Assembly (NCBI RefSeq): GCF_028715765.1
Contig: NZ_JAQURE010000009.1
Span: 1 to 64,000 of the forward strand
Reading direction: 5' to 3'
DNA from: Rhodoferax sp.
GTDB taxonomy: Bacteria; Pseudomonadota; Gammaproteobacteria; Burkholderiales; Burkholderiaceae_C
Length of the DNA: 64,000 bases
Shown here: one piece after another, positions 122 through 52,211 of the stretch
Numbering within the stretch: position 1 is the stretch's first letter
Layout of the letters: every line of letters starts with the position of its first letter
The notes under the pieces: generated by a model
Database searches by the model: none
What the model saw: the letters and a program-made list of their open reading frames with translations, nothing else
Told to the model about the DNA's origin: nothing
Program-made: the position numbers and the translations under genes

Positions 122-1015
122 TTGAACTTGAAAGCTGCAAAACCGGTGTTGAGCGTTTACCGTGCATTTGACTTGCGTTACATGCTTTATGGCGATTACG
201 CGTTTGACTACCCACGAAGTGAAATCAATGATTTACTTTCTCATGGGTCGCCTGCTTTGGTCACAACGAAACAAACAAAAGAAGAGTTTGCTGCGCTTGT
301 GATTGACAAACCGGCCGCACAGCACAAATTAGTTACGCCTTATGACGGTAGTTATGTGTCGCCTTTGTACCTGTCAGGCGCCACGCCCAACCTCGCTCCC
401 GACTTCCTGGCCGCACTGGCGCAAGCCTTGCGCCGCCCGGTGACGCAGCCGCACGGCCTGCCTGAAGGTGTCACGCCCGAGGACGTGCTGGCTTACGTTT
501 ACGCGGTGCTGCACGCACCCAGCTACCGCAGCCGCTACGCCGGCTTCCTGAAAAGCGACTTTCCCAGAATTCCATTAACAAATCAGGCTCTAGCGCTTAC
601 AGATAAAGCGCATGCAGCTATTGATTTTGAATCAACCTGGCGCGCTCTGCTGCCCTTGGGTCAGCAATTGATTGATCTGCACCTGCTTAAAAATGTGCCC
701 ACCAACGCACGCGTCAAGTTTGCGGTGCAGGGCAGCAATGAGGTGGAGAAACCCCGGTTTGAAGTCTGCAACGGCAGTGGCCGTGTCTGGATCAACGCCA
801 GCCAGTACTTTGAGGGCGTGCCTTTTGACACCTGGCAGTTCAAGGTAGGTGGCTACCAGGTGTGTGAAAAGTGGCTCAAAGACCGCAAAGGCCGCCAACT
901 CGACTTTGCTGACATCCAGCACTACAGCCGAGTTGTGGCAGCCCTCACGCGCACCCGTGAGCTGATGCAAGAGATTGACACTGTGGCCAATGGCCAACTC
1001 TGGCCGCTGGCGTAG
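122..1015 (+). CDS. C-terminal part of a type ISP restriction-modification enzyme (probable remnant)
   Basis: The 297-residue product matches only the C-terminal specificity region of single-chain type ISP enzymes. It has a YRAFDLRY-type segment at the start, YAVLHAPSYRSRYAGFLK followed by DFPRIP near residue 150, and the hallmark GGYQVCEKWLKDRKGR near residue 247. No nuclease, helicase or methyltransferase motifs are present, so it cannot be a full enzyme. The frame is closed by a stop at 89-91 and the proposed start is a TTG. The simplest reading is a truncated or frame-shifted gene whose front half lies outside the window. Residues about 153-171 are encoded by an in-frame copy of the interspersed palindromic repeat. 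They sit where the family normally goes directly from DFPRIPLT to the helix preceding LHLL. Low-GC codons in the first 75 residues suggest horizontal origin. Confidence 0.75.
   Translation: MNLKAAKPVLSVYRAFDLRYMLYGDYAFDYPRSEINDLLSHGSPALVTTKQTKEEFAALVIDKPAAQHKLVTPYDGSYVSPLYLSGATPNLAPDFLAALAQALRRPVTQPHGLPEGVTPEDVLAYVYAVLHAPSYRSRYAGFLKSDFPRIPLTNQALALTDKAHAAIDFESTWRALLPLGQQLIDLHLLKNVPTNARVKFAVQGSNEVEKPRFEVCNGSGRVWINASQYFEGVPFDTWQFKVGGYQVCEKWLKDRKGRQLDFADIQHYSRVVAALTRTRELMQEIDTVANGQLWPLA
578..632 (-). repeat. palindromic interspersed repeat, copy inside type ISP fragment
   Basis: This is a reverse-orientation copy with the recognisable pieces CTCTAGCGCTTA, AAAGCGCATGCAGCTATTG and ATTTTGA. It is read through in frame and contributes about 19 residues to the host protein. 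Confidence 0.8.
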
Positions 1016-1085
1016 CCTTGTTATAGGCACGAAACCAGCCTATACCCCTGGGTTGAAGCGCCGAGATCAACGGCAATTGCATCTG

Positions 1086-1376
1086 CTAAAGGTGGCGTGG
1101 CGCATCCATGCGGTCATGCAAGATGCGAACAACGGCAATGCCGTAGTCTGTGATGCGAAAGTAAATGACGTGCCGCTCGATACTGTGGCGACGATAGCCC
1201 TGTCGAATGTGGTCACAGGCTGGCGCAGTTCTGGGCGACTGCGCCAGGTCGGCAAAAGCCGTTGTCAGGTGGTCGGTGTAGCGATCAGCCTGGTCAATAC
1301 CCCAATGTTCGGCGGTGTAAGTCCAGATGTGTTCAAGATCAATCTCTGCGGCGGGGCTGAGCCGATATTCAGGCAT
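1086..1376 (-). CDS. parE: ParE-family toxin
   Basis: A 96-residue RelE/ParE-superfamily protein. It opens with MPEYRLSPAAEIDLEHIWTY and ends in the family's RHVIYFR and VVRILHDRMD strand pattern. In characterised ParE proteins the target is DNA gyrase. The ATG at 1374-1376 is chosen because it matches the family N-terminus. A longer reading of the same frame, starting at 1469, would run through the antitoxin gene. The start overlaps the end of the upstream antitoxin gene by 8 bp, the usual tight coupling of a toxin-antitoxin operon. It sits directly after the restriction-modification remnant, a common mobile neighbourhood. Confidence 0.9.
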   Translation of the reverse strand: MPEYRLSPAAEIDLEHIWTYTAEHWGIDQADRYTDHLTTAFADLAQSPRTAPACDHIRQGYRRHSIERHVIYFRITDYGIAVVRILHDRMDAPRHL

Positions 1377-1614
1377 GGGCAGCGCGCATTTTCTGCTTGA
1401 ACGCAGAAGCATCGAAAACTTGTGGCTCGCCGCTGGCCTCGCCTTCAACCAGCGCCTGCCGGATGACATCAGTCTCCAAGCTGCGCTCTTGTTCGCGCCG
1501 GATCAGGTCGCGGATGTATTCGCTGTCGTTGGTGTAAAGACCTAAGTGAATTTGCGTTTTGATCCAGTTGTCTTGCTGGTCAGTCAAGGTGATGGTTTTT
1601 CGCAAAGTTGCCAT
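1369..1614 (-). CDS. parD: ParD-family antitoxin
   Basis: An 81-residue ribbon-helix-helix antitoxin of the CC2985/ParD type. The N-terminal part (MATLRKTITLTDQQDNWIK, then LGLYTNDSEYIRDLIRR) is the DNA-binding RHH fold. The C-terminal tail would wrap the ParE toxin. It is the first gene of the parDE operon and its last codons overlap parE by 8 bp. Antitoxins of this family normally repress their own promoter, which should lie in the roughly 90 bp upstream (1615-1704), before the carbonic anhydrase gene. I see no operator there that I would defend. Confidence 0.9.
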   Translation of the reverse strand: MATLRKTITLTDQQDNWIKTQIHLGLYTNDSEYIRDLIRREQERSLETDVIRQALVEGEASGEPQVFDASAFKQKMRAAHA

Positions 1615-1704
1615 GGTGTCGCTTTCCAGGTTGGAGTCAAGGGTGTGATCGATTCATGCTGCTAATGCATTGTTACGCAGAATCGCTGCCAATTTCCTCT
1701 GGCC

Positions 1705-3105: not shown

Positions 3106-3240
3106 GGCAGGCGTGGCTCAAGGGCGGGCAAAAGTGAGGGTCTTTAGTTCTTTATATCGGCAAAGGGCGGCGGTAGCTTAATCTGGCAATACTGCAACGC
3201 GGCGCTATAGTGCCATTTTGTTCCTCACACTGAGTCCGCT

Positions 3241-5027: not shown

Positions 5028-5039
5028 GGTGCGGGGGCT

Positions 5040-5648
5040 TTAGCGGGGAATGTCGATGTTGACCCGGCGCACCCCTTCGGGCGGGTTGGGGAAACCCTGC
5101 AGCGCAGCGTCCAGCAGGGCGGCCAACACGGTGGCGTGGTCGCTCCAAATGCCGTCGTGCGTGGCATGGCTCTCAAACACCACCGTTTGCTGGGCATTGC
5201 GCATGACCAGGCTCACCTGGCGCCAATAGTTGGTTTGCTGGGCGTCCAACCCCGGAAACAGCGCACCGCGGTTGCCAATGCTGACCGCACCGTTGCCAAA
5301 CACCCAGCCCAGCCCCACGCCAATGTTGACGCCGTTTTGACGCGGGTTGCTTTCTTGCCGCTGCACCGCGGTCACCTGCACGCTCAAAGCCGCAGCAGGT
5401 GAAAACTTCAGTCCTACTTTGGCCAAGGCTTGCTGTGCCAGTTGCTCCAGTTGGTCTTGGTCTGGGTTGTGCTGCTGCGAGGGCAGACGCTCAAAGCGGT
5501 AGCTGGCACCGGTGGCCACAGGTTGCGGGGCAAAGCTGTTGACCTGCGCATCAACCAGCCGGGTGCTGGCGCAGCCGGTGAGTGTAAATGCTATTGTTAA
5601 TATAGCTGCTTGCGCATATTTCATAAGCTCTAGAGGCATATTTTTCAT
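5040..5648 (-). CDS. DUF4136-type lipoprotein whose signal peptide derives from the interspersed repeat
   Basis: Predicted outer-membrane or periplasmic lipoprotein of about 202 residues. The lipobox is LTGC with Cys26. It is followed by a DUF4136-like domain (YRFERLPSQQ near the start, glycine-rich middle, C-terminal VNIDIPR). The start at 5648 is preceded by GAG at a plausible distance; an internal ATG at 5624 is an alternative. Residues about 1-21, which form the n- and h-regions of the signal peptide, are encoded by a well-preserved copy of the palindromic repeat (5586-5646). The export signal therefore appears to have been created by the insertion. The longer reading from 5720 lacks a signal peptide at its N-terminus. 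Confidence 0.75.
   Translation of the reverse strand: MKNMPLELMKYAQAAILTIAFTLTGCASTRLVDAQVNSFAPQPVATGASYRFERLPSQQHNPDQDQLEQLAQQALAKVGLKFSPAAALSVQVTAVQRQESNPRQNGVNIGVGLGWVFGNGAVSIGNRGALFPGLDAQQTNYWRQVSLVMRNAQQTVVFESHATHDGIWSDHATVLAALLDAALQGFPNPPEGVRRVNIDIPR
5586..5646 (+). repeat. palindromic interspersed repeat, copy supplying a lipoprotein signal peptide
   Basis: A forward copy with ATAGCTGCTTGCGC and AAGCTCTAGAGGCATA clearly preserved. The opposite strand is translated as the first ~21 residues of the DUF4136 lipoprotein. Confidence 0.85.
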
Positions 5649-5737
5649 ATAAGTTCTCAAACGTGGCAGTGGCTTGAAGTGCCCCTGTAAAAAGTACGAA
5701 CAGCGAACAATAGCGAACAACTGCGAACCTGTGTGGC

Positions 5738-7968: not shown

Positions 7969-8781
7969 TTAAAGCAGCGAGAAATCGCGCTCAAACTTCA
8001 TCAAATGCTGGCCGCCATCCACCAGCAGCGTGGTGCCGGTGATCGATGCGTTGCCCAGCGCAAACGCCACGGTGGCAGCCACATCGGCCGGGGTGGACGA
8101 GTGCCCCAGCGGCGAGAGCTTGTGCAAGGCCTCAAACTTTTCCGGGGTCAGCATGTGGCTGGTCAGCGTCAGCCCCGGCGCCACGCCCACCACCCGCACC
8201 CGCGGCGCCAGCGCCAGCGCCAGCATGGTGTTGGCCGACTCCAGCGCGGCTTTGGACAAGGTGTAGCTGACAAAGTCGGGGTTGGGGTTCCACAGCTTTT
8301 GGTCGAGCAAATTCACCACGGCACCGTTGGCCTGGCGGCTGGCCAGATGGTCGTGCAGCGCTTGGCTGAGCAAAATGGCTGCACCGGTGTTGGCGCGCAG
8401 GTGCTTCTCCATGGCGGCAAAGCTGAAGGTTTGCGGCGTGTCGTGCTCAAAGGTGCTGGCACTGTTGACCAAGGCATCCACATGACCCAGCGTTTCGATC
8501 ACTGTGGGGAGCAGGTTGCGAACTGCCGTCTCATTGCCTAAATTGGCACGAAATGAGCTGCTAGCGCCCGCCAGTGCTGCGCAATCAGCTACTGTTTTAC
8601 GAGCATCTTCTACTGAGTCTCGGTAGTGCACCGCCACCCGCCAACCGGCTTTGGCCAGCGTCAGCGCAATCTCGCGGCCCAGCCGTTTGGCCGTGCCTGT
8701 GACCAGCACGGTGGGCTGGCGCACCACGGCCGGGGTGGCAGAGTCAAGCGGGCGGGGGGTGGGGGCAGAGGGGGTAGACAT
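7969..8781 (-). CDS. pteridine reductase-like short-chain dehydrogenase (FolM/PTR1 type)
   Basis: A 270-residue SDR. The cofactor loop is TGTAKRLG (residues 28-35), with R33 in place of the usual glycine, as in PTR1/FolM pteridine reductases (TGxxxRxG). The catalytic set fits the PTR1 pattern: D160 (LLDQ), Y173 and K177 (SYTLSK). The neighbour folB supports a role in reducing dihydro- or monapterin. The start at 8781 is chosen because the upstream extension is not SDR-like. Residues about 61-81 coincide with a degenerate repeat copy. The start lies only 19 bp from the divergent methyltransferase start, so the promoters must lie inside the opposite genes. Confidence 0.85.
   Translation of the reverse strand: MSTPSAPTPRPLDSATPAVVRQPTVLVTGTAKRLGREIALTLAKAGWRVAVHYRDSVEDARKTVADCAALAGASSSFRANLGNETAVRNLLPTVIETLGHVDALVNSASTFEHDTPQTFSFAAMEKHLRANTGAAILLSQALHDHLASRQANGAVVNLLDQKLWNPNPDFVSYTLSKAALESANTMLALALAPRVRVVGVAPGLTLTSHMLTPEKFEALHKLSPLGHSSTPADVAATVAFALGNASITGTTLLVDGGQHLMKFERDFSLL
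8539..8600 (-). repeat. degenerate palindromic repeat copy inside the pteridine-reductase-like gene
   Basis: A weak reverse copy in which AAATTGGCAC, CTAGCGCC, GCGCAATCAGCTACTG and TTTT keep the order and spacing of the consensus. The GC-rich middle has drifted, so the match could be partly chance. Confidence 0.4.
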
Positions 8782-8800
8782 TGGGAGACAATTCCAGGCT

Positions 8801-9937
8801 ATGACAACGCAACCTAGTTTAACGACCGAGCTGTCGCACCACATTGCCCAGGCCATTGCGCACGCCGGGGGTTGGGTCGGCTTTGACGCTTTCATGGACA
8901 TGGCGCTTTACACGCCGGGCTTGGGTTACTACGCCCATGGCAGCGCCAAATTTGGTGCCTTGCCCTACACCGTGCAAGACGGCGTGCGCGTGGCCGGCAG
9001 CGACTTTGTCACCGCGCCAGAAATCACCCCGCTGTTTGGCTGGACGCTGGCCAAGCAAGTGGCGCAGGCCTTTGAGGTGACAGGCACCGACGAGATTTGG
9101 GAGTTTGGCGCGGGCTCTGGCGCGCTGGCGCTGCAGCTGCTGCAAGCCTTGCAGGCCAGCGGTGTGGCCGTATCAAGCTACACCATTGTGGACATATCGG
9201 GCAGTTTGCGCGCCCGTCAACAAGCCACTTTGGCGGCTTTTGCGGCCCAAGTGCGCTGGGTGGATGCCTTGCCTGACCAGCTGCAAGGCGTGGTGCTGGG
9301 CAACGAGGTGCTTGATGCCATGCCTGTCAAACTGCTGGCGCGCGTGGCCGGTGTGTGGCACGAGCGCGGTGTGGTGGTGGGGGCTGCTGATGCTGCCCCC
9401 AGCTTCACCTGGCAAGACCGACCCACGCACCTGCGCCCTAGTTTGGACGTGCCCGGCGAGCACGATTACCTGACCGAAATCCACCCCCAGGGCGAAGCCT
9501 TTGTGCGCACCCTGGGTCACAAGCTGCACCAAGGTGCCATTTTCTTGATGGACTACGGCTTTCCCGAGGCCGAGTACTACCACCCGCAGCGCCACATGGG
9601 CACCGTGATGTGCCACCAGGCGCACCAGGTGGATGACGACCCCTTGGTTCGGGTCGGCCAAAAAGACATCACCGCCCATGTCAACTTCACCGGCGTGGCG
9701 CTGGCCGCTAACGCGGCAGACCTGGGCGTGCTGGGCTACTGCAACCAAGCCCAGTTTTTGATGAATTGCGGTTTTCTGACACAGCTGGAGGCGGCCGACC
9801 TGCCCACCCGCGTGATGGCACAAAAGCTCATCATGACGCATGAAATGGGCGAGTTTTTCAAGGTCATTGGCTTCTTCAAGGGCGAACCTTGGCAGGCCAT
9901 CGGCTTTGATGCCGGCGACAAAACCCACACCTTGTAA
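8801..9937 (+). CDS. class I SAM-dependent methyltransferase, MidA/NDUFAF7 family
   Basis: A 378-residue protein of the family (DUF185) whose mitochondrial member NDUFAF7 methylates an arginine of respiratory complex I. Features are the conserved N-terminal IAHAGGWVGFDAFMDMALYTPGLGYY segment in part, the SAM-binding loop WEFGAGSGALA near residue 103, and NEVLDAMPV near residue 168. The bacterial substrate is uncertain. The start at 8801 has GGAGA about 12 bp upstream. It lies 8 bp before the DUF2905 gene. The very short divergent gap to the SDR is unusual. Confidence 0.88.
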   Translation: MTTQPSLTTELSHHIAQAIAHAGGWVGFDAFMDMALYTPGLGYYAHGSAKFGALPYTVQDGVRVAGSDFVTAPEITPLFGWTLAKQVAQAFEVTGTDEIWEFGAGSGALALQLLQALQASGVAVSSYTIVDISGSLRARQQATLAAFAAQVRWVDALPDQLQGVVLGNEVLDAMPVKLLARVAGVWHERGVVVGAADAAPSFTWQDRPTHLRPSLDVPGEHDYLTEIHPQGEAFVRTLGHKLHQGAIFLMDYGFPEAEYYHPQRHMGTVMCHQAHQVDDDPLVRVGQKDITAHVNFTGVALAANAADLGVLGYCNQAQFLMNCGFLTQLEAADLPTRVMAQKLIMTHEMGEFFKVIGFFKGEPWQAIGFDAGDKTHTL

Positions 9938-10203: not shown

Positions 10204-11400
10204 ATGAACCAGCTCTTTGCGCGTTTGAAGGCTCTGCACCGGCAGCATGACTTGGTGCTTGGCCGTGCGGTGGCTGACAACATGAAGCGGGTGCAGTGGA
10301 TTTTTCTCACCCTGGTGCCGCTTTATGCGGCTGGGCTGATGCACTCCTGGGGTCCAGTTTTGGGCGTAGACGTCCTCAAGGCGGCTTCCATGCGCGCCAT
10401 GGGCTGGCTGGATGTGGTGATGCTGGCATGGCTGTTGACATCTATGGCTTTGTTTTATGGCCTGCGCCTTGGTCAGCATGCCACCCCCGTGAAACGACTT
10501 TTCATGGGCATTGCGACTTTTGTTTTCTTGGCTTATGGCGTGCTGGCCACCTGGATTTTGAATGGGCAGCAGCCCACGGTGACCCTGTATGTGTTGGCGT
10601 GTGTGTTTGTCGGGGCTTTGGTGCTGGAGCGCCCCAGCGTGATGTTCGTCATGTTTTTCTTAAGCTACGTCGCGCTGGTGCTTAGTCTGGGGCAGGTTCC
10701 CATGACGGCTTTGATGCTGCGCACCGAGCTGCTCCATGGCAGCATTGCAGCCATGTTGGGTTTTGTACTCTCATTGACTTCATGGCGGCGGTTCTCGGTC
10801 ACTGAGCTTTTGCGAGACCAAGTGGCCGCACAAAACCAAGACTTGCGCCAGCGCAATGCCGAACTGGCGCAGCAAAAAGCCGAGTTCGAGCAGCTCTCAC
10901 AGCACGATGGCCTCACCGGTCTGCTCAACCGCCGCGCCTTCACCCAGCAAGCCCAGTTGCTGTGGCAGCGCGCCGCCAGAGACGGCAGCACGCTGGCTGC
11001 CGTGATGCTGGACCTGGACTTTTTCAAACGGATCAATGACCAATTTGGCCACCCTGCCGGAGACGCGGTCATCATTCACATGGCTCAAATCATTCGCACC
11101 AGCGTGCGCGAAACCGACCTGGCAGCCAGAGTGGGCGGCGAAGAATTCATGCTGGCACTGCCTAACAGCAGCACCGACAACGCCGTCTTGGTGGCCGAAA
11201 AAATCAGGCATCAGTTGACGCAAGCCCCGCTGGTTTTGCCGGACGGTCAGCAAGTGAGTATGACCGTGAGTGCCGGTGTGGTGGCTTGCCAGCCTGACCA
11301 AACGGCAAACTTTGAGGCTCTGTACAGCGCCGCAGACCGCGCCTTGTACCAAGCCAAACAATCTGGCCGCAACTGTGTGAAAGTTGCCATCATGCTATAA
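10204..11400 (+). CDS. membrane diguanylate cyclase 1 (GGEEF)
   Basis: A 398-residue protein with about six hydrophobic helices (residues ~30-195), a coiled-coil linker (~200-232) and a GGDEF domain. The active site is GGEEF (311-315). The inhibitory RxxD I-site is R302-D305, exactly five residues before it, so product inhibition by c-di-GMP is expected. It makes cyclic di-GMP from GTP at the membrane. The start is the ATG at 10204; a TTG at 10153 extends the frame but without a family match. The next gene is a close paralogue. Confidence 0.9.
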   Translation: MNQLFARLKALHRQHDLVLGRAVADNMKRVQWIFLTLVPLYAAGLMHSWGPVLGVDVLKAASMRAMGWLDVVMLAWLLTSMALFYGLRLGQHATPVKRLFMGIATFVFLAYGVLATWILNGQQPTVTLYVLACVFVGALVLERPSVMFVMFFLSYVALVLSLGQVPMTALMLRTELLHGSIAAMLGFVLSLTSWRRFSVTELLRDQVAAQNQDLRQRNAELAQQKAEFEQLSQHDGLTGLLNRRAFTQQAQLLWQRAARDGSTLAAVMLDLDFFKRINDQFGHPAGDAVIIHMAQIIRTSVRETDLAARVGGEEFMLALPNSSTDNAVLVAEKIRHQLTQAPLVLPDGQQVSMTVSAGVVACQPDQTANFEALYSAADRALYQAKQSGRNCVKVAIML

Positions 11401-11483
11401 AAACAGTATTGATTTTTGTCAATTAAATAAGCCTATGGTGTTTTAAAATCAGGCATAACGTGCTATTAAATTTGATAAAAATA

Positions 11484-12683
11484 ATGCTCAATCTTTGGAA
11501 GCAACTGCTGCTCTGGCACGGCCAGCACAACCTGGTGGCGGCACAAGCCATGCAAGACAACATGGCGCGTTTGCCTTGGGTGCTGGGGGTGGTGCAGCTG
11601 TTGCTGGCAGCCGGTATTTACCTGGCCTGGGGCGTGAATGCCAGCACGTCACCCGCTGAAGCACACTTTTCAAACCTGATTGGCTGGGTTGACGTGGCCT
11701 TGATGCTGGGCTTGTTGGTGGTGTTGGTCTGGCTGCTCTGGTGTCAGCGCAGCGCCTGCATGTCGGTCTGGCGGCAGGGGTTGCCGGTGTTTTTGGCGGT
11801 GGTGTTTGTCAGCTTTGGCATCACCTTGTCGATCGCTTCGCAGTGGGTGCTGCCATCCGCCACCATGTATGTCATCAGCTGTGTGTTTGTCGGCACACTG
11901 CTGCTGATTCGTCCCAGCATCATGCTGGTGATTTTTGGCGTGAGCTATGCCGTTTTTTTCTGGCTGTTGGGGCAGACGGCTCAAACTGGCACAGTGTTGA
12001 TCTTGCTGCGTTTTCACGGTGGCATGGCAGCGGCGCTGGGGTTGACGCTGTCACTGGTGCTGTGGCGCCGGCACACGGTCACCGAGCTGCTGCGCCGTCA
12101 GGTGCAGGCGCAAAACACCACGCTGGCGTTGCAAAAGACCCAGCTTGAAGCCCTTTCCCAACGCGACAGCCTGACCGGCCTGCTCAACCGCCGCGCCTTC
12201 ACCGACCAAGCCCACACCGTTTTGAGCCGCACCCTGCGCGACGGCTTGCCGCTGGCTGCGGTGATGTTTGACCTGGATCACTTCAAACAGGTGAACGACG
12301 AGCATGGTCATCCGGCGGGCGATGCCGTGATTCAATTCATGGCACAGGTGATTGCCTCGAGCGTGCGCGACTCAGACCTGGCTGCGCGCGTGGGGGGTGA
12401 AGAGTTCATGCTGCTGTTGCCCGCCACGGGCGCCCAAGCGGCGCAGGGCGTGGCAGAAAAAATACGGCGGCAGGTGGCGCAAGCGGCCGTCGCTGCGGGC
12501 ACAGCAAAGCCGCTGAACATCACCGTCAGCGCCGGTGTAGCCGCTTGGGAGCCCGGGCAGATGAGCGGCTTTGAAGACCTCTACGCGGCTGCCGACAGAG
12601 CTTTATATGCTGCCAAACACGCCGGACGCAACCAGGTGGTGTGCGCGGATGCGTCTGAAATTATATTAAAAATAGGCCTCTAG
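11484..12683 (+). CDS. membrane diguanylate cyclase 2 (GGEEF), tandem paralogue
   Basis: About 399 residues with the same plan as the preceding gene: a six-helix membrane sensor followed by a short linker and a GGDEF domain with RDSD (I-site) five residues before GGEEF. Shared blocks such as VTELLR, LTGLLNRRAFT and GHPAGDAVI show a tandem duplication. The two membrane parts have diverged more than the catalytic parts, suggesting different signals. The start is the ATG at 11484; a GTG at 11460 is possible. The last residues (about ILKIGL) and the TAG stop fall inside a palindromic repeat copy, so the original C-terminus has been replaced. Confidence 0.88.
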   Translation: MLNLWKQLLLWHGQHNLVAAQAMQDNMARLPWVLGVVQLLLAAGIYLAWGVNASTSPAEAHFSNLIGWVDVALMLGLLVVLVWLLWCQRSACMSVWRQGLPVFLAVVFVSFGITLSIASQWVLPSATMYVISCVFVGTLLLIRPSIMLVIFGVSYAVFFWLLGQTAQTGTVLILLRFHGGMAAALGLTLSLVLWRRHTVTELLRRQVQAQNTTLALQKTQLEALSQRDSLTGLLNRRAFTDQAHTVLSRTLRDGLPLAAVMFDLDHFKQVNDEHGHPAGDAVIQFMAQVIASSVRDSDLAARVGGEEFMLLLPATGAQAAQGVAEKIRRQVAQAAVAAGTAKPLNITVSAGVAAWEPGQMSGFEDLYAAADRALYAAKHAGRNQVVCADASEIILKIGL

Positions 12684-12722
12684 AGCTCATTAATCAAGCG
12701 TTAGTAGCTATTGTTTTTGATT
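12665..12722 (-). repeat. palindromic interspersed repeat between two converging reading frames
   Basis: A reverse copy with AGGCCTCTAGAGCTCATTAA, CAAGCGTTAGTAGCTATTG and TTTTTGA preserved. It supplies the stop codon of diguanylate cyclase 2 on the plus strand and of the small minus-strand frame. Confidence 0.8.
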
Positions 12723-13895: not shown

Positions 13896-14888
13896 ATGAC
13901 CCACAACCTTTTGACCGACGGTTTTAAATTGCCTGCGGGCACCGCGCCAGTGGCTTGCGTAGACATTGGCGGCACCAAGGTGGCGGTCAATGTGGTCGAT
14001 GAGCATGGCGCGCGCGGCAAGGTGGTCGAGCCCACCGCTACCACGGGCGCGCCTGATGCGCTGGGTCAGCAAATCATCCGCCTGATTCATGCCAGCTGCG
14101 ACGCGGCCGACGTGCCGGTGGGGCGCATTGCGCGTGTGGGCGTGTCGTCTTGCGGGCCGTTTGTGTTGAACCAGGGGCTGGTTGAGCTGGCCGCGCCCAA
14201 CATTTGCGGCGGCTTGGCAGGCAAGGCGCGTGGCCTGCCCAACGACTGGCAAACCGCGCTGCTGGAGGCGCCACTGCGCGCCGCTTTTGCCCACGTGCGG
14301 GTGGAAAACGATGGCATTGGCGCGTTGGAGGCCGAGCGCCGCTGGGGTGCGTTGCAGCTTGATGGCGTGCCCATGGCCAACTGCGCCTATGTGACCTGGA
14401 GCACCGGCATTGGCACTGGGCTGTGTGTGGACGGCCACGTGCTGCGCGGCAAAAACGGCAACGCTGGCCACGCTGGGCACTTGTTTGTGAGCAGCAATGC
14501 GGATGCGCTGTGCGGCTGCGGCAATGTGGGTGACGTGGAAGGGCTGGTGGCTGGCAACGCCATTGCCCGGCGCTTTGCGGCGCAAGGGTATGCCGACGCT
14601 GCTTCACTTTTTGTAGCTGCTTACCAAGGTGATAAAAGGGCTATCGGCCTGATTGATGACTTGTGTGAGGTCATGGGTCGACTGCTCTACAACCTGATTG
14701 CCACGCTCGATGTGCAACGCATCAGCCTGGGCGGCAGCGTCTACTGGCATCACCGGGCTTACCTGTTGCCGCGCTTGCAGGCTGTGGTCAAAGGCAAGCT
14801 GCCAGCGCTGACAGACGGCTGTGAGCTGGTCAGTGCTGGCCTGGGCGAGCGGGTAGGAGACTTTGGCGCGCTGGCGCTGGTGGCATAG
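13896..14888 (+). CDS. ROK family sugar kinase (glucokinase-like)
   Basis: A 330-residue kinase. The phosphate-binding loop is DIGGTKVAV (residues ~23-31). The sugar-binding and catalytic region is VENDGIGALEAE, then WSTGIGTGL. The ROK zinc site is GHAGH followed by CGCGN. It most likely phosphorylates a hexose imported by the transporter encoded next. Residues about 237-254 coincide with a degenerate copy of the palindromic repeat (14606-14655), suggesting a tolerated in-frame insertion in a C-terminal helix. The ATG at 13896 is preceded by GAGA (bases 13884-13887). Confidence 0.9.
   Translation: MTHNLLTDGFKLPAGTAPVACVDIGGTKVAVNVVDEHGARGKVVEPTATTGAPDALGQQIIRLIHASCDAADVPVGRIARVGVSSCGPFVLNQGLVELAAPNICGGLAGKARGLPNDWQTALLEAPLRAAFAHVRVENDGIGALEAERRWGALQLDGVPMANCAYVTWSTGIGTGLCVDGHVLRGKNGNAGHAGHLFVSSNADALCGCGNVGDVEGLVAGNAIARRFAAQGYADAASLFVAAYQGDKRAIGLIDDLCEVMGRLLYNLIATLDVQRISLGGSVYWHHRAYLLPRLQAVVKGKLPALTDGCELVSAGLGERVGDFGALALVA
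14606..14655 (+). repeat. degenerate palindromic repeat copy inside the ROK kinase gene
   Basis: TTTTTGTAGCTGCTTA and AAGGGCTATCGGCCTGATTG follow the consensus order. The inner hairpin has decayed. It is read through in frame. Confidence 0.4.
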
Positions 14889-16313: not shown

Positions 16314-16340
16314 GTCGGGCACTTTTGGTTGAACCCGCAA

Positions 16341-16424
16341 CAGGGCTGGGGTGCGTTCCGCCGCGGATGTCCCCCGCCCTGCGGGCTCCTCCTTGATTCC
16401 GCTCTGGAACGCACCCCAGCCCTG
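16341..16424 (+). ncRNA. long hairpin after gtsA (19-bp perfect stem)
   Basis: CAGGGCTGGGGTGCGTTCC at 16341-16359 is exactly complementary to GGAACGCACCCCAGCCCTG at 16406-16424, with a 46-nt GC-rich loop. There is no following T-run, so it is not a simple intrinsic terminator. A 3' stabiliser or processing site that protects the gtsA message fits better. Confidence 0.6.
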
Positions 16425-16471
16425 CTGCTAGACGCTACGAAATCTTTTGTAGGAAGCGATCATGCGCATCG

Positions 16472-16581
16472 AGACCTGACGGAGTGGGTGTTTCCCGCAG
16501 TGAGGTCAAGGAGGAGACCCTAGTTCGAAGAATTAGGGTTGGGGGACACGAACGGAGGGAAATACCCGCTTCGTCAGGTCT
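16472..16581 (+). ncRNA. candidate structured RNA element in the gtsA-gtsB spacer
   Basis: The outer 25-bp arms are AGACCTGACGGAGTGGGTG plus TTTCCC, pairing with a GGGAAATACCCGCTTC... arm. All three departures from perfect complementarity are G-U wobble pairs, which is what conserved RNA pairing would look like. An inner ACCCTA/TAGGGT hairpin with a TTC/GAA extension sits inside. I do not recognise the family. Confidence 0.5.
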
Positions 16582-26812: not shown

Positions 26813-26813
26813 G

Positions 26814-30139: not shown

Positions 30140-30203
30140 TTTTTGCTATTTTTAAAATAGCTATCTGCGCTTATTCTATAAGCGCTAAATGCCAATTTGA
30201 TTC
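30140..30203 (+). repeat. palindromic interspersed repeat immediately upstream of the restriction-modification gene
   Basis: A forward copy with AATAGCTATCTGCGCTTATT and ATAAGCGCTAAATGCCAATT. The inner hairpin is perfect (GCGCTTAT, TCT, ATAAGCGC). It ends six bases before the ATG of the next gene and so forms its whole leader. Confidence 0.85.
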
Positions 30204-30209
30204 ATAAAA

Positions 30210-36911: not shown

Positions 36912-36965
36912 TGTATTTGATAGCACCTCATGCTCTATTCATAAGCTCTAGAGGCCAATTTGTCA
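36912..36965 (+). repeat. palindromic interspersed repeat between EamA and Lrp genes
   Basis: A forward copy with TTTGATAGCACCTCATGCTC and CATAAGCTCTAGAGGCCAAT well preserved. It fills the whole 60-bp gap between the two minus-strand genes. Confidence 0.8.
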
Positions 36966-36966
36966 C

Positions 36967-37854
36967 TTATTTCTTGCGCCGCTGCAGCCACCATGGCCAG
37001 AGCAGGTTGAGCGCCAGGCCACTCAGCACCAGGGCGGCAGCGATCAGCTTCCAGGCGGGCAAGCCTTCACCCAGCCACAAGGCCGAGCCGCCCATGCCAA
37101 ACAGCGGCACCAGCAGCGCCATCGGGGTGATGGTGGCGGCGCTGTAGCGCGCCAGCAGCCAGCCCCAGGCGGCATAGCCAAACAGCGAATTGCCCCAGGC
37201 CTGCCAGGCCACGGCGCCCCAGGTGAACGCATCGGCCTGCGCCAAACTGCCCAGCACCACCTCCCAGCCCTCCATCCACAAGGTCAGCAGCAGCAACGGT
37301 GGCACGGCAAACAAGCTAGACCACACCACGTAGGCCACCATGTTGATGCGCCCAGCCGCCCGGCTGACCAAGTTGCCGCCCGCCCAAGACAACGCAGCCA
37401 GCAAAATCAGCCCCAAACCCAACAGCGTGGTGCTGCCGTCGGTGTGGGTCACGATCACGCCCAGGCCTGCCGCGCCCAGCGCCAGCGCCCACAGTTGCAC
37501 CCTTTGCAAAGACTCGCCCGCCAGCAGCATGGCCAGGCCAATGGTGAAAAACACCTGCATCTGAATCACCAACGAGGCCAAGCCGGCTGAAATGTGGCCG
37601 TTCATGGCCACAAACAGCAAGCCAAACTGCCCCACACCAATCAGCAGTCCGTAGCCCGCCAGGTTGCGCCACGGCACGGCTGGGCGTTTCAGAAAAAACA
37701 CCATGGGCAGCACCACCACCACAAAACGCAGCGTGGCAAACAGCAGCGGCGGCATCTGCCCCAGCGCCAGTTTGATGACCACAAAGTTGCTGCCCCACAC
37801 CGCCACCACCGCCAAGGCCAGCCAAAAATGGCGCAAAGAGAGTGAAGTTTTCAT
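36967..37854 (-). CDS. EamA/DMT-family transporter
   Basis: A 295-residue inner-membrane protein with ten hydrophobic helices arranged as two EamA repeats. The first repeat includes VWGSNFVVIKLALGQ, the second SWAGGNLVSRAAG. Members export amino acids or other metabolites. The adjacent Lrp-type regulator downstream suggests amino-acid export. The start at 37854 is 139 bp from the divergent glmS start, with an AT-rich gap that could carry regulator sites. Confidence 0.88.
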   Translation of the reverse strand: MKTSLSLRHFWLALAVVAVWGSNFVVIKLALGQMPPLLFATLRFVVVVLPMVFFLKRPAVPWRNLAGYGLLIGVGQFGLLFVAMNGHISAGLASLVIQMQVFFTIGLAMLLAGESLQRVQLWALALGAAGLGVIVTHTDGSTTLLGLGLILLAALSWAGGNLVSRAAGRINMVAYVVWSSLFAVPPLLLLTLWMEGWEVVLGSLAQADAFTWGAVAWQAWGNSLFGYAAWGWLLARYSAATITPMALLVPLFGMGGSALWLGEGLPAWKLIAAALVLSGLALNLLWPWWLQRRKK

Positions 37855-43401: not shown

Positions 43402-45045
43402 TCAAAGCGCATCAAGCCGCTGGCGTGTGGCGCTGGCCTGGGCTTGCAGCGCGGCTAGTTCTTCTGGCGGCATTTTGGCCAGCTGGCGGTAGGCCATGCC
43501 GATGCGCGGGTTGCGTTCCAGTTTGTCGGCGTTGCGCTGGTAAAAGTCCCAGTACAGCGCATTGAACGGGCAGGCAGAGTCCCCCAGGCGCTGTTTTTTG
43601 TCATAGGCGCAGCCTTTGCAGTAGTCGCTCATGCGGTCAATGTAGGCGGCGCTTGACACATAGGGTTTGGTGGCCAGCAGGCCGCCGTCGGCAAACTGGC
43701 TCATGCCCAGGGTGTTGGGCAGCTCCACCCACTCAAACGCGTCGATGTAAATACCCAAATACCAGCGGTGCAGCGCCTGCACATCCAGCCCAGCGAGCAG
43801 GGCAAAGTTGCCAATCACCATCAGACGCTGAATATGGTGCGCGTGGGCGGTTTGCAGCGAGCCGGTGATGGCGGCAGCCAAGCAGTTCATGCGCGTGTTG
43901 CCCGTCCAAAACCATTGGGGCAGCGGCCTGGTGTGTGCAAAGTAGTTGTGCGCGTCATAGCCCGGCATTTGCGCCCAGTAAATGCCGCGCACATACTCGC
44001 GCCAGCCAATCACCTGGCGGATAAAGCCTTCAGCGGCGGCCAGCTCCACGCGGCCAGCGCGCCACTCGGCCTCAACGCGCTGCACCACTTCACGCGGGTT
44101 GAGCAGTTTCACGTTCATCACAAAAGAGAGCAGGCTGTGGAACAACCGCATGGCTTTGCGGCTCATGGCATCTTCATAGTCGCCAAAGTGGGGCAGGGCG
44201 TGGGTGATGAAGTGGTCAAGCTGCTGCAAGGCCTCCAAGCGGTTCAGGGGCCAGCGGAAGTTGGCAGCATTGGGCTCGCCAAAGCTCTGTACGCCTGCGG
44301 CTTGAATGCTGGCCCACAGGGCGCTGTGGTCGTGCTGCGGGCGCAAATCGGGTGGCTCGGGGGGTGAGCCTTTCCAGGGCTTGCGGTTCTCGGCGTCAAA
44401 GTTCCATTGGCCACCGGCGGGCTTGTCGGCCCCGTCAATCAGCACGCGGTGGCGTTTGCGCATGTGGCGGTAAAAGGTCTCCATCAGCCACTGCTTGCGC
44501 CCAGCAAACAGCTCTGCCACTTCATGGCGCTGGGTGTAGAAGTGTTCGCTGTCAACGCCGCAACTGCTGGCGTTGATGTCAACGCGCTGACCCTCATTGC
44601 TATTAATAGCAGAGCTGCTTGCGCTTATTCCATATGGTCTAGAGGCACAAAACGCTTGCAATTGTTGGTCTAGGCGGTATTCGTCGGGGTCTTGGTATTG
44701 AAACACCTGCACGCCGTAGTGGCGGATGAGGGCGCTCAAGTTGTCCGTCAGGCTTTGGGTGTTGGCCGCGTCGTCAATGGCCAGGTAATGCACGCGGTGG
44801 CCAGTCTCGCGCAGCAGCTGTGCCAGCGCGCGCATGCCAGCAAAAATGGCGATGATTTTTTGCGCATGGTGCAACACGTAGTCAGTTTCCTGGCGCATCT
44901 CCATCAGCACGTAGATCACGCTGGTGTCTGCTTTTGAAAACCAGCTGTGCAGCGGGTTGAGCTGGTCGCCCAGAATCAGCCGCAGGGTGTGGGCTGGGGC
45001 TGGCGCTGGATAGGGGGCAAGGTTTGCTTTCACGGTCACGGTCAC
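43402..45045 (-). CDS. FeS-type bacterial cryptochrome / (6-4) photolyase (PhrB/CryB family)
   Basis: A 547-residue flavoprotein of the FeS-BCP group. It has the N-terminal antenna-binding domain (LRLILGDQLNPLHSWF), the FAD-binding helical domain, and four cluster cysteines C388, C476, C479 and C492. Their spacing (88, 3, 13) is identical to that of Agrobacterium PhrB. Expected role: light-driven (6-4) photoproduct repair or light signalling. Residues ~132-151 are encoded by a well-preserved palindromic repeat copy. They are followed by about ten unusual residues before VDSEHFYTQRHEV, so the linker between domains is lengthened. The start is GTG at 45045. Last gene of a unit with Cry-DASH and DUF2256. 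Confidence 0.92.
   Translation of the reverse strand: MTVTVKANLAPYPAPAPAHTLRLILGDQLNPLHSWFSKADTSVIYVLMEMRQETDYVLHHAQKIIAIFAGMRALAQLLRETGHRVHYLAIDDAANTQSLTDNLSALIRHYGVQVFQYQDPDEYRLDQQLQAFCASRPYGISASSSAINSNEGQRVDINASSCGVDSEHFYTQRHEVAELFAGRKQWLMETFYRHMRKRHRVLIDGADKPAGGQWNFDAENRKPWKGSPPEPPDLRPQHDHSALWASIQAAGVQSFGEPNAANFRWPLNRLEALQQLDHFITHALPHFGDYEDAMSRKAMRLFHSLLSFVMNVKLLNPREVVQRVEAEWRAGRVELAAAEGFIRQVIGWREYVRGIYWAQMPGYDAHNYFAHTRPLPQWFWTGNTRMNCLAAAITGSLQTAHAHHIQRLMVIGNFALLAGLDVQALHRWYLGIYIDAFEWVELPNTLGMSQFADGGLLATKPYVSSAAYIDRMSDYCKGCAYDKKQRLGDSACPFNALYWDFYQRNADKLERNPRIGMAYRQLAKMPPEELAALQAQASATRQRLDAL
44596..44652 (+). repeat. palindromic interspersed repeat inside the FeS cryptochrome gene
   Basis: A forward copy with AGCTGCTTGCGCTTATTCCA and TGGTCTAGAGGCACAAAA intact. 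It is antisense to the gene and translated as about 20 residues including SASSSAINSN. Confidence 0.85.
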
Positions 45046-46538: not shown

Positions 46539-46557
46539 GTAGATGATTTTTGTGTGC

Positions 46558-46612
46558 TAAATATGCCTCTAGAGCTTATGGATAAAGCGTAAGCAGCTAT
46601 TGAAATTGATTA
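46558..46612 (-). repeat. palindromic interspersed repeat upstream of the DUF2256/Cry-DASH unit
   Basis: A reverse copy with ATGCCTCTAGAGCTTATGGA and AAAGCGTAAGCAGCTATTGA intact. It lies between the third photolyase gene's 3' end and the DUF2256 start. Confidence 0.85.
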
Positions 46613-46705: not shown

Positions 46706-48307
46706 TTAGAGGGACTCATCAAACAACCCAATTTGCCGGCTGTCTGCAGCGGGCTTGCGGTTTGGGGCGCGCGTGCCACTGTCGCGCCCTTTGCGTGAGG
46801 CGTGTTTTTCCACTATGGCCGCTTTGCCTGCGCGCACCTCTGGCGCACGGCGCAGTTTGTGCAGGCGGTCTTTGGCGGCGCGGGTGGCGGCTTCCAGGTC
46901 GACGGGCGGCAGCGGCCAGGCGTCTGGTGCACCTGCTGGTGCATCGGCACACACACGCACGCCGCAGGCGGCTTGCACACTCTCAGGCATTTTCCAGGGC
47001 TCGAGCAGCCAGCTGTCGGGCACGTGGCGCAGGGCGGGGCACCAGCGGCGCACAAACAGACCGCGCGGGTCGTGGTCTTGCGCTTGCTTGACCGGGTTGT
47101 AGACGCGGGTGGTGTTGATGCCGGTGGTGCCACTTTGCATTTGCAGCTGGCTCCAGTGGATGCCGGGCTCATAGTCTAAAAATTGGCGTGCCAGCCACTG
47201 ACCCACTTCATGCCAATGCAGCCACAGCGGGTACGCTGCCACCGAGACCAGCATGGCGCGCATGCGAAAGTTGAGCCAGCCGGTGTCACGCAGCATGGCC
47301 ACGCAGGCGTCCACCATCGGCCAGCCGGTGCGCCCGGCTTGCAAGGCGGCAAAGTGGGCCGGGTTCCAGTCGGGTTCACGCAGGCCGTCGTAGCCGCGGT
47401 GCACGTTGCGCCACTCCAGCTCGGGCTCAGACTCCAACTTCTGGATGAAATGGCAGTGCCAATGCAATCGGCTCAAAAATGCCTCTAGCCCTTTTGCTTC
47501 TTGCATAGAGTGCTCTTGAAGTTGAAGCGCCTTTTGCTCGGTGGCTTGCACCACTTCGCGCAGGCTCAGGCACCCAAAGCTGAGGTACGGTGACAAGCGC
47601 GAGCAGGCCTCAGGCGCCGACAGGGGTGACGAGATGCCGCCCCGGTAATGGCGGCAGCGGTCTAGCAAAAAATCATCCAGCACGGCCAGCCCCACACTGC
47701 GCCCACCGCGCTGACGCCGGGGTGGGTCAAACGCCGCCAGCCCCAGGTCTTGTGCAGCGGGCACGGTCTGGGCGGGCCAGGGCGAGGGCTGAAACTGCAG
47801 TAGGCCCATGCCCATGCCTGCACATGCACTCGTGCCGGGGCAAGGGTGCTGTTTAGCGCTGGTGTGTGTGACCCAGTGGCTGTGCCAGAGGTTGCGGTTT
47901 TGCAGGCGGCGCACCACGCCAAACTGGGCCGACTCTTGCCACGTCACAGCGTGCCGCTGGCACCACTGGGCCACGGCCGTGTCGCGCGCATAAGTGAAAG
48001 CGTTGCCAGTTTCCTCGTGCGAAAAAAGGCCGTTGAACGGTAGCAGGGCGTGCAGTTCTGACAACACCGCAACCACGTCGCCGGTGCGCACGTGCAAGCG
48101 GCCGCCCAGGGCTTTCAGCGCACGCGCCAGCTCGCGCAAGCTCTCCAGCACAAATTCATAGTGTTGGCGAGCGGCATCGGGCTGTGCCCACAGGCCGGGC
48201 TCGATCACATACAGGCACAGCACCGGGCCGCAGGCAGCGGCTTGCATCAGCGCGGCGTGGTCGTGCAGGCGCAAGTCGCGCTTGAACCAGACCACGCTGA
48301 TGTTCAT
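46706..48307 (-). CDS. cryptochrome/photolyase family protein
   Basis: A 533-residue FAD-type photolyase homologue. Its N-terminal antenna domain is VVWFKRDLRLHDHAAL. The catalytic domain has LHWHCHFIQKLE, GRTGWPMVDACVAML, LNFRMRAMLVS and TGINTTRVYNPVKQA. It is distinct from both neighbours, being neither Cry-DASH nor the FeS type. The exact subclass and lesion cannot be fixed by eye. The C-terminus carries a basic tail of about 70 residues ending in DSRQIGLFDESL. Residues ~261-277 coincide with a degenerate repeat copy. Its start overlaps the HupE-like gene's stop as ATGA. Confidence 0.88.
   Translation of the reverse strand: MNISVVWFKRDLRLHDHAALMQAAACGPVLCLYVIEPGLWAQPDAARQHYEFVLESLRELARALKALGGRLHVRTGDVVAVLSELHALLPFNGLFSHEETGNAFTYARDTAVAQWCQRHAVTWQESAQFGVVRRLQNRNLWHSHWVTHTSAKQHPCPGTSACAGMGMGLLQFQPSPWPAQTVPAAQDLGLAAFDPPRRQRGGRSVGLAVLDDFLLDRCRHYRGGISSPLSAPEACSRLSPYLSFGCLSLREVVQATEQKALQLQEHSMQEAKGLEAFLSRLHWHCHFIQKLESEPELEWRNVHRGYDGLREPDWNPAHFAALQAGRTGWPMVDACVAMLRDTGWLNFRMRAMLVSVAAYPLWLHWHEVGQWLARQFLDYEPGIHWSQLQMQSGTTGINTTRVYNPVKQAQDHDPRGLFVRRWCPALRHVPDSWLLEPWKMPESVQAACGVRVCADAPAGAPDAWPLPPVDLEAATRAAKDRLHKLRRAPEVRAGKAAIVEKHASRKGRDSGTRAPNRKPAADSRQIGLFDESL
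47478..47525 (-). repeat. degenerate palindromic repeat copy inside the photolyase gene
   Basis: ATGCCTCTAGCCCTTTTGC and AGTGCTCTTGAAGTTGAA follow the reverse consensus loosely. In-frame translation gives a QEHSMQEAKGLEAF stretch. Confidence 0.4.
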
Positions 48308-50711: not shown

Positions 50712-50761
50712 TATTTCTGCGCTCGGTTTGGGCGTTTCATAGATTCACTTGGAGAGCTGGT

Positions 50762-50950: not shown

Positions 50951-50968
50951 TTCCTGGTTGCTCACTTT

Positions 50969-50997
50969 AAAAAAACGAGCTGCGGCTCGTTTTTTTT
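50969..50997 (+). terminator. intrinsic terminator, bidirectional
   Basis: A stem ACGAGC (50975-50980), loop TGCG, GCTCGT (50985-50990), with an A-tract before and a run of T (to 50997) after it. It ends the small exported-protein gene and, read the other way, can also end the DUF3429 unit. Confidence 0.9.
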
Positions 50998-51008
50998 ATG
51001 GCTCAAAC

Positions 51009-51488: not shown

Positions 51489-51489
51489 G

Positions 51490-51864
51490 TCAGTCAGGGC
51501 TCAATTCGGTGGCATGGGCTTGCAGTTGCGCCAGTGTGACGCGCTCCAGCGCCTTGATGTGCGTGCTGCGCAATTCAACCGGCGGTGCCACCTGCGCCTG
51601 CAGTGCTTCAAGCCAGCGCAGCACGCACAAGCACCAGCGGTCACCGGGTTTGAGCCCGGCAAAGCGATGATCAGGTCGCGCTGTGATCAAGTCGTTACCC
51701 TGGGCCAGCGAGAAGTCAAGAAACTCACGCGTCATGCGGGCGCACACCACATGGGTGCCGTGGTCTTGCGCGTCGGTGTGGCAGCAGCCGTCACGAAAAT
51801 AGCCGGTGAGGGGGTCGTAAGAGCAAGGCACAAGGGGTGTGCCCAACACATTGAGTGCGGTCAT
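51490..51864 (-). CDS. DUF2237 family protein
   Basis: A 124-residue soluble protein with the family block LNVLGTPLVPCSYDPLTGYF, then RDGCCHTDAQDHGTH, VCARMTREFLDFS and PGDRWCLCVLRWLEA. Conserved cysteines suggest metal or redox chemistry; the function is unknown. The start at 51864 is taken because the 87 residues upstream in this frame are low-complexity and not part of the family. It is directly followed by DUF3429. Both families recur near photolyase loci. Confidence 0.87.
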   Translation of the reverse strand: MTALNVLGTPLVPCSYDPLTGYFRDGCCHTDAQDHGTHVVCARMTREFLDFSLAQGNDLITARPDHRFAGLKPGDRWCLCVLRWLEALQAQVAPPVELRSTHIKALERVTLAQLQAHATELSPD

Positions 51865-52117
51865 GGTGGTGAGAATGTCGAATGCGTGATGGTGATGACA
51901 TTGTGAAACAAGCGCTTGGCAAAAGGCCTGGGCACGCGCCAAACACCCCGTCAATTCATGGGCATTGGGTGGGTGTGGGTCGCAGCGGTGTGATTTTTCA
52001 GGTGCGGCTGCTGTGGGGGTGTCTCTGGCTGCCCTGGTGCTTTGGTGGCTCTGGCACGGCGCGGCGGCTGGGTCAGGTTCGCGCGCTTTTACCCCCAAAG
52101 CCCGGTCACCTGACCCA

Positions 52118-52140
52118 ACCACCACGCCTTATCTGCGTGG
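52118..52140. repeat. 23-bp dyad element, second copy
   Basis: ACCACCACGCCTTATCTG followed by CGTGG; the copy at 23296-23318 differs only by T for C. CCACGC can pair with GCGTGG, so it folds into a small hairpin. Confidence 0.5.
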
Positions 52141-52160
52141 ATGGTGCGTTGTAAAGTGAC

Positions 52161-52211
52161 CAAAATTCATAGCTGCTCACGCTTTTTGGATATGCTCTAG
52201 AGGCTGTTTTC
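52161..52211 (+). repeat. palindromic interspersed repeat downstream of maeB
   Basis: A forward copy with AAATTCATAGCTGCTCACGC and ATATGCTCTAGAGGCTGTTT. Confidence 0.8.

Follow-up and report, generated by a model that had tools for sequence, protein, structure and literature searches.

The window analysed here is a stretch of 64,000 nucleotides (64 kb) of Rhodoferax sp. (assembly GCF_028715765.1, contig NZ_JAQURE010000009.1, positions 1 to 64,000, forward strand). Copies of a short, dispersed, dyad-shaped motif lie along it, both in spacers and inside genes. An initial annotation had compared this repeat to the palindromic elements of Rickettsia; these, like the palindromic elements of Wolbachia, are repeats translated in frame, in either orientation, inside many unrelated genes. 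We found that the motif is under position-specific constraint, is retained at the same sites at strong divergence, occurs in both orientations in spacers and genes, and is nearly absent from one clade of related genomes. The genome under study (3.41 Mb) is called G000 below, and two congeners used for comparison are called G121 and G242.

Copies in the window and in the genome

In the window, the left-arm pattern had 10 exact matches for a shuffle mean of 3.9 (10 were reached in 0 of 100 shuffles), and the right-arm pattern had 12 for a shuffle mean of 1.8 and a shuffle maximum of 6. In the whole genome, TAGCTGCTNRCGCTT was found 180 times with at most one mismatch, and the same pattern read backwards once. 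A profile (nhmmer) was seeded on 69 pattern matches from G000, a few of them probably due to chance, then iterated. The genome material consisted of 40 fetched stretches (841,767 bases). This profile search, called for in the initial annotation, returned 172 copies of at least 16 bits and none in the reversed sequence; the seed model without iteration gave 151 copies, and again none in reverse. Shuffle counts, profile and reversed-sequence control thus agree that the repeat family is real. E-values of weak copies are optimistic, because these copies help to define the model during iteration; the reversed-sequence control and the congener G242, with 1 hit in 1.56 Mb, guard against this. The 172 copies are not a random sample either, since most stretches were picked for holding pattern matches. 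The genome total was therefore extrapolated from the density of contigs C1, C2 and C9, which were taken nearly whole (76 copies in 406,767 bases), and comes to about 640 copies per 3.41 Mb.

The window contains 15 profile copies. Among the 15 sites listed in the initial annotation, 14 were recovered, at 21.8 to 53.1 bits; the one at 14606 was borderline, and a copy at 57798-57866 had been missed. An Rfam scan of the window matched a tRNA only.

Several copies lie inside genes. The copy at 565-636 (minus strand, 47.9 bits) is located in gene 146-1015(+), which encodes a type ISP C-terminal specificity domain (PF18135), and is translated in antisense frame 2 (NQALALTDKAHAAI). The copy at 44595-44666 (plus strand, 46.3 bits) is translated in antisense frame 0 (ASRPYGISASSS) within the photolyase-related gene 43402-45045(-) (PF04244). 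A weak copy at 47473-47531 (minus strand, 21.8 bits) falls in the DNA-photolyase-family gene 46706-48307(-) (PF03441), and the copy at 8540-8609 (minus strand, 25.6 bits) in a short-chain dehydrogenase open reading frame, 7969-8901(-) (PF00106). The borderline site (14600-14656, plus strand, 14.3 bits, E 0.015) is inside the ROK-family gene 13896-14888(+) (PF00480).

Other intragenic copies were compared with their orthologues in G242. At 19136-19199 (plus strand, 28.2 bits), inside the ABC-transporter ATPase gene 18410-19492(+), the DNA alignment is ungapped and the protein is 3 residues shorter than its top solved homologue, so there is no insertion. The CCA-adding-enzyme-like gene 25478-26842(-) carries two minus-strand copies: the first (26465-26536, 39.9 bits) goes with 11 additional residues relative to G242 and 18 relative to 1vfg, the second (25571-25637, 28.5 bits) with a net change of 0. 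In glmU, 34288-35721(+), the copy at 34481-34552 (plus strand, 31.0 bits; VEAALAVNTGAAGQFDL) corresponds to 3 more residues than in G242 and 7 more than in 5vmk. Finally, the newly found copy at 57798-57866 (plus strand, 32.6 bits), inside the epimerase-family gene 57414-58322(+), shows a net change of 0.

The remaining copies are found at gene edges or between genes. The initial list of locations was correct overall, and was refined at 5585-5656 (plus strand, 53.1 bits): this copy, listed as internal to a gene, overlaps the 5' end of the small gene 5040-5624(-), supplies its predicted start and codes for the opening residues of a lipoprotein-like signal peptide (MKYAQAAILTIAFTLTGC), the start being that of a home-made gene finder and the signal peptide being judged by eye. 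The copy at 12654-12719 (minus strand, 45.4 bits) lies at the 3' end of gene 11484-12683(+), the stop codon being within the copy. This gene and its neighbour 10204-11400 have repeated segments in common (10864-12413, 71-77% identity) and are apparently tandem paralogues. The copy at 30143-30215 (plus strand, 46.4 bits) is placed between divergent genes and reaches the start of 30210-33347(+). At 36914-36977 (plus strand, 37.7 bits), a copy fills a 60-bp tandem spacer that measures 15 bp in G242, and the intergenic copy at 46546-46608 (minus strand, 48.4 bits) has tandem genes on either side. The last intergenic copy, at 52161-52226 (plus strand, 46.0 bits), is also part of a longer dispersed mosaic repeat (52110-52260; CCACGCCTTATCTGCGTGGA ... 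CGAGTCC ...), of which it forms the middle. The mosaic repeat also occurs on contigs C2, C5, C8 and C11, and 7 members match at 44-49 of 50 bases of the left or right flank.

Two other repeats were observed in the window. An inverted repeat at 54658-54784, with 38-base arms that are 79% complementary and 51 bases apart, is placed between genes 52339-54642 and 54859-55275. Overlapping inverted repeats surround GCAACAGGGCTGGGGTGCGTTCCGCC at 16337-16519, between genes 15063-16313 and 16658-17536, the start of the latter being uncertain.

Anatomy, gene context and distribution of the motif

The motif has a footprint of about 70 bases. Its dyad core, about 36 bp long, reads AGCTGCTTRCGCTTAT-nnn-ATAAGCGCTAGAGGCC; to the left lies an AT-rich block with GCT, and to the right another AT-rich block that includes ATTT and TATAAA. 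Information is very unevenly distributed: AGC, GC, one G and CTA-AG are almost fixed, adjoining positions are free, and the fixed positions are largely the same in coding and intergenic copies. Orientation is strand-neutral (86 plus, 91 minus).

The two arms do not covary: 70.6% of 980 cells were paired, compared with 70.8% after shuffling. RNAalifold found no consensus pairing, and folding was only slightly better than for shuffled sequences (mean z about -1; on the forward strand, z was below -2 for 20 of 88). Neither the stable palindromic stem of Rickettsia-type elements nor the conserved RNA hairpin of an intrinsic terminator was detected. An RNA or cruciform hairpin was thus rejected, as consensus fold and covariation are both absent; the lack of arm covariation indicates that it is the sequence that is read.

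Gene context was analyzed with the home-made gene finder, which predicted 802 genes (90% coding) and missed at least one real gene of the window, the dehydrogenase frame 7969-8901(-). At E <=0.01, 177 copies were retained: 85 intergenic, 22 at gene edges and 70 intragenic. The intergenic copies were distributed over tandem (62), convergent (15) and divergent (5) spacers, with 3 unassigned. Since spacers of at least 70 bp number 222 tandem, 34 convergent and 80 divergent, the copies avoid divergent spacers. Gene ends are often close by: 105 gene 3' ends flank intergenic copies, 77 of them within 50 bases of the copy, and 27 gene ends fall within a copy. Conversely, 11 copies are located at protein N-termini, and 3 of these look, by eye, like lipoprotein or Sec signal peptides. 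The leader-like copies belong to window gene 5040-5624(-), L036:8426-9844(+) and L016:14250-14858(-); two have a lipobox-like ending and one is Sec-like. The motif may therefore have been recruited as a leader sequence at gene starts.

As proposed in the initial annotation, and as for Rickettsia-type elements, intragenic copies are translated in frame in both orientations. Among the 70 copies inside predicted genes, 56 use two frames, sense frame 0 (30 copies) and antisense frame 2 (26 copies). The favoured peptides are I-A-A-x-A-x-x-I-S-A-R-G-Q-F on one strand and N-x-P-L-A-x-x-x-K-A-Q-A-A-I on the other. Frame use was compared with the prediction from the open frames of intergenic copies, and departed strongly from it (chi2 63, 67 copies of at least 20 bits): in antisense frame 0, 17 copies were predicted and 2 were seen. 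The encoded peptide therefore seems to matter, beyond the absence of stop codons.

The motif is not restricted to this genus. Of 200 genomes sampled from the family, 49 had near-exact arms, with up to 135 in one genome, single matches being possibly due to chance. Among the matches listed, the exact pattern occurs in Acidovorax, Simplicispira, Giesbergeria, Extensimonas, Paenacidovorax, Comamonas jiangduensis and Alicycliphilus. The 859 kb surrounding exact-pattern hits in other genera contained 234 copies, of which 114 were seeds. The consensus of the 120 non-seed copies was very close to that of G000; its right arm more often reads GCGGCTAT. Divergent spacers are avoided as in G000 (126 tandem, 43 convergent, 7 divergent). 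The frames of 34 coding copies in Acidovorax-type contigs were sense 0 (14), antisense 0 (10), antisense 2 (6) and others (4). The exact pattern was also present in 8 stretches from a collection of 2.9 million viral contigs. A search of the PLSDB plasmids gave no match, which is a weak test as a single 80-base copy served as query.

The initial annotation knew of no description of such a repeat in this group. Its core had in fact been printed in 2017, as an unexplained spaced motif pair of Acidovorax ebreus, GCTTAT(N)5AAGCG (PMC5217627, Table 7), which is exactly the centre of the present motif. Of its 114 copies, 5 are in genes, 44 between convergent, 4 between divergent and 59 between co-oriented genes (PMC5217627). 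A second pair in the same source, ATAGCT(N)22CAAAAG of Polaromonas naphthalenivorans, with 18 of 125 copies in genes, has its ATAGCT arm in common with the present motif, while its spacing is not an exact fit to our consensus. Unlike the present analysis, the section of PMC5217627 that reports these pairs does not address reading frames, host proteins, retention or loss. Among the matches listed, open-licence titles and abstract beginnings do not describe in-frame or maintained copies in Comamonadaceae.

Insertion, retention and probable loss

The initial annotation also expected clean insertions in multiples of three, as for Rickettsia-type elements. Real extra residues do exist at some sites. 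A UvrC match is present in 87 of 89 congeners (G000 included), and 30 of these loci were examined. One loop of the protein is 77-104 residues long in 17 of the 30 and 43-60 residues long in 13. At this one site, 15 of the long loops resemble a forward copy and 2 a reversed copy, and the profile scores the site in 16 of the 17 long-loop genomes.

As a rule, though, clean insertion was rejected by alignment with orthologues and with solved structures, the kind of comparison by which the initial annotation had proposed to judge its insertion view. When 29 coding copies were compared with their orthologues in the nearly motif-free G242, the net change was 0 in 13 and within 3 residues in 17. The other 12 were longer by 4-29 residues (4 to 14 in 7 copies, 15 or more in 5), and none was shorter. 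In 1257 control windows, 92% showed no change and 4% a gain of at least 4 residues. Median residue identity under the core was 0.23, compared with 0.85 in controls. Since G242 probably descends from a motif-bearing ancestor, solved homologues were compared too. In the top alignments of ten copies in nine proteins, net differences ranged from -9 to +18 residues, and none reached the 21-23 residues of a full copy: EPSP synthase +5, CCA-adding enzyme +18, tryptophan synthase alpha +18, ABC ATPase -3, shikimate dehydrogenase +5, acyl-CoA synthetase +12 and +4, GlmU +7, IleS -9 and TilS +6. AlaS and a third acyl-CoA synthetase copy lay outside structure coverage.

The DNA comparisons gave the other side of the picture. 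Nineteen spacers with a copy in G000 only were longer by a median of 45 bp (15 of 19 positive), compared with 4.5 bp for 68 copy-free control spacers. The 37 DNA alignments with G242 are biased against large gaps; even so, 9 of them are interrupted at the copy by a gap of 16-45 bases. A further test, comparing residual scores of G242 segments with those at shifted positions, was set aside as bases common by descent make its null unfair. Taken together, the protein and spacer comparisons indicate that copies partly add DNA and partly overwrite existing sequence: 17 of 29 coding copies show a length change of at most 3 residues, residues were added in 12, and spacers were lengthened.

The strongest result is the retention of sites at matched divergence. 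G121 and G242 are about equally distant from G000, with high-scoring segment identities of 78.0% and 77.2% and fourfold-site identities of 0.526 and 0.522, respectively. Of the distinct alignable sites, 10 of 11 were common to G000 and G121, and 0 of 37 to G000 and G242; at the only G121 site that is not shared, the G000 sequence has a 42-base gap. Under simulated neutral change, the copies still detectable were 18-36% at 0.2 substitutions per site, 8-20% at 0.25 and 0-1% at 0.4. Therefore, many more sites are retained in G121 than neutral change would leave, and the motif is absent from G242 to a degree that equals or exceeds neutral decay. Moreover, constraint is position-specific (Fisher p 3e-6). 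Between G000 and G121 copies, identity was 86% at high-information positions (178 of 206), 66% at low-information positions (118 of 178) and 79.5% in the flanks (2763 of 3476).

Across the 89 congeners, 51 were motif-rich (counts of at least 31) and 38 motif-poor (counts of at most 20), with at most 52 candidates scored per genome. The 30 UvrC loci gave a consistent picture: 50 copies (E <=0.05) were found in 99 kb of 20 rich genomes and 0 in 46 kb of 10 poor genomes. Three sites recur in position, and in orientation except for the two reversed UvrC copies. In a UvrC tree of 30 of the 89 congeners, drawn at midpoint, the 10 poor genomes form one clade (support 98/96), nested in a 100/100 group with G000, G121 and four other rich genomes. 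This poor clade is best read as one loss, the simpler reading because other genera carry closely the same motif. DprA is probably another motif host gene. Among genomes with a usable Pfam match to it, this match was interrupted in 44 of 48 rich ones and in 9 of 36 poor ones, and three of these nine belong to the poor clade. In rich genomes the break lies near profile position 45, and 27 of the 36 poor genomes have a continuous match. Broken matches that include members of the poor clade fit ancestral presence of the motif followed by loss.

Proposed maintenance of the motif and possible readers

Target duplication, a mark of miniature inverted-repeat transposable elements, was not seen, the best of 12,370 offset tests matching at most 6 of 140 copies. 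G000 has one gene for a Y1 (RAYT-like) transposase, L293:2145-2849(+), which ends inside a copy (2829-2894, 43.6 bits). A RAYT-like gene is present in 76 of the 89 congeners, rich and poor, and was rejected as the mover for this reason. With no hairpin, no target duplication and a Y1 gene in rich and poor genomes alike, the simplest view of the element is that of a site in duplex DNA recognised by a DNA-binding factor. We thus favour, with confidence a little short of even, a long dyad-shaped motif of duplex DNA that is read and maintained at hundreds of sites, and not a decaying mobile repeat. A trans-acting DNA-binding factor would recognise the motif; once this factor, or its effect, had been lost in a motif-rich ancestor of the poor clade, the sites would have decayed. 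Less certainly, maintenance could be a self-favouring drive like that of the DNA uptake sequences of Pasteurellaceae and Neisseriaceae. Motif-bearing DNA would be preferentially taken up or recombined, and motifs would build up in spacers as well as in those coding regions where the peptide is tolerated. This uptake-type drive is the leading, although unproven, mechanism, as we know of no other process by which costly motifs reach coding sequence in their hundreds without being inserted.

The comparison with uptake signal sequences (USS) and DNA uptake sequences (DUS) holds in several respects. Like them, the present motif has hundreds of copies per genome in both spacers and genes; like USS, it has AT-rich segments beside the core. 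Coding USS of Pasteurellaceae are not insertions according to the same alignment test (PMC1626085), and the DUS literature reports a core-genome bias and doubts over pure point mutation (PMC2397512). In G000, 44 of 181 genes in copy-free gaps of at least 12 kb have an orthologue in the fetched half of G242, compared with 235 of 607; this points the way expected if recently acquired DNA is poor in copies, but the largest copy-free stretch (22 kb; L010/L011, contig C2 9089-27970) looks, from six proteins, like a chemotaxis/flagellar cluster. There are also differences: the USS and DUS cores are strict and 9-10 bases long, whereas the present motif has its 36-bp dyad core, its 70-bp footprint and a loose consensus, belongs to Comamonadaceae, and adds residues with part of its copies.

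Several points weigh against a read and maintained motif, or against uptake as its driver. By comparison with known uptake sequences, the motif is much longer, its consensus is much looser, and it is a dyad. No reader protein was found, and the transposase and competence families tested do not track the motif. ComEC was present in 83 and DprA in 86 of the 89 congeners, poor ones included, and of 23 chosen genomes from both the rich and the poor group, 21 had GspH/FimT-like and 23 had HHH_3 proteins; these competence genes were thus rejected as the lost factor. In motif-poor lineages, the change could have affected the receptor alone. Pure point substitution fails to explain the extra DNA in 12 of 29 coding copies, in 15 of 19 spacers and at the unshared G121 site. 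The comparison with G121 rests on 11 sites, and the polarity of the loss assumes a root outside the poor clade, in a midpoint-drawn tree of 30 of the 89 congeners. The preference for two frames is not general, as antisense frame 0 accounts for 10 of 34 coding copies in Acidovorax-type contigs and for 2 of 70 here. Finally, the spacing of copies is weakly, not clearly, more even than random (P 0.01-0.27 over six settings; 0.08 for intergenic copies alone), and even spacing was rejected as a hallmark of uptake sequences on account of this weak signal.

A serious rival, although we consider it unlikely, is the binding site of a chromosome-organising or nucleoid-associated protein. It agrees that the motif is read and maintained, and replaces uptake drive by ordinary selection at many weakly selected sites. 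A dyad core of about 36 bp between AT-rich blocks, the strand-neutral orientation, the conservation of sites and their wholesale loss in one clade are all consistent with such a protein. Weak selection per site would, however, have to outweigh the cost of unusual peptides in conserved enzymes such as EPSP synthase and UvrC, and no candidate protein was found.

A mobile palindromic element of the Rickettsia type is less probable still. Its copies would have transposed and been tolerated as two frames stay open, and later deletions of host residues would account for the differences in length. The present motif shares with these elements the in-frame translation of intragenic copies in both orientations. 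The full-size extra UvrC loops, 15 forward-like and 2 reversed-like at one site, fit an insertion, as do the 12 coding copies that are longer than their orthologues when none is shorter, the 45-bp median excess of copy-bearing spacers and the gaps at 9 of 37 copies aligned with G242. Against this, most coding copies show no full-size insertion, even relative to distant homologues (a gain of 15 residues or more in 5 of 29), which largely refutes the mobile element for coding copies. Target duplication and arm covariation are both absent, the RAYT-like gene is also found in poor congeners, and sites are stable and constrained by position, having been maintained for long in comamonad hosts.

BRE, another dispersed short repeat of Bordetella and Comamonadaceae, is partly intragenic, about 90 bp long and sometimes tandem, with an average of 69% GC in Bordetella (PMC3110155). 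It resembles the present motif in being short, dispersed and partly inside genes; as the present motif is AT-rich, identity with BRE was set aside on this reported GC content, that is by description and not by sequence (PMC3110155).

A REP/REPIN family mobilised by the genome's own RAYT-like tyrosine transposase is, in our view, very improbable. REP and REPIN elements are imperfect palindromes present in hundreds of copies together with one RAYT-like gene. G000 shows the same combination, and the 43.6-bit copy overlaps the 3' end of its Y1 gene. However, copies often adjoin gene ends in this genome, they are common within genes and not extragenic only, the arms do not covary, and the gene also occurs where copies are all but absent: G242, with its single hit, has an orthologue of 80% identity. 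A transcription terminator or hairpin of 3' untranslated RNA, which the preference for gene ends (62 tandem, 15 convergent and 5 divergent spacers; 27 gene ends inside a copy) could suggest, is hardly credible given the weak folding without consensus structure or covariation and the many copies inside genes in both orientations.

Returning to the maintained motif, a more far-reaching version of this reading is possible, although we lean against it. The Comamonadaceae would possess a self-recognition or self-propagating dyad motif of about 70 bp. This motif would have been driven or selected to hundreds of sites, would rewrite short stretches of essential enzymes and even provide signal peptides as well as gene ends, and would disappear from the whole genome upon loss of its reader. 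To our knowledge, such motif systems exist only in Pasteurellaceae and Neisseriaceae, and among the papers listed in our searches there was none on this family. If a drive or a reader protein maintains the motif, the 51 rich and 38 poor congeners form a matched natural experiment, in which the reader gene can be sought by its presence and absence. A DNA-level motif with a footprint about 7 times that of an uptake-sequence core would then shape protein sequence in dozens of genes, and the origin and loss of such motifs would become directly testable. For annotation, it should be noted that the motif can be the source of odd A-rich peptides, such as IAACAYSISARGQF, in the proteins of comamonads.

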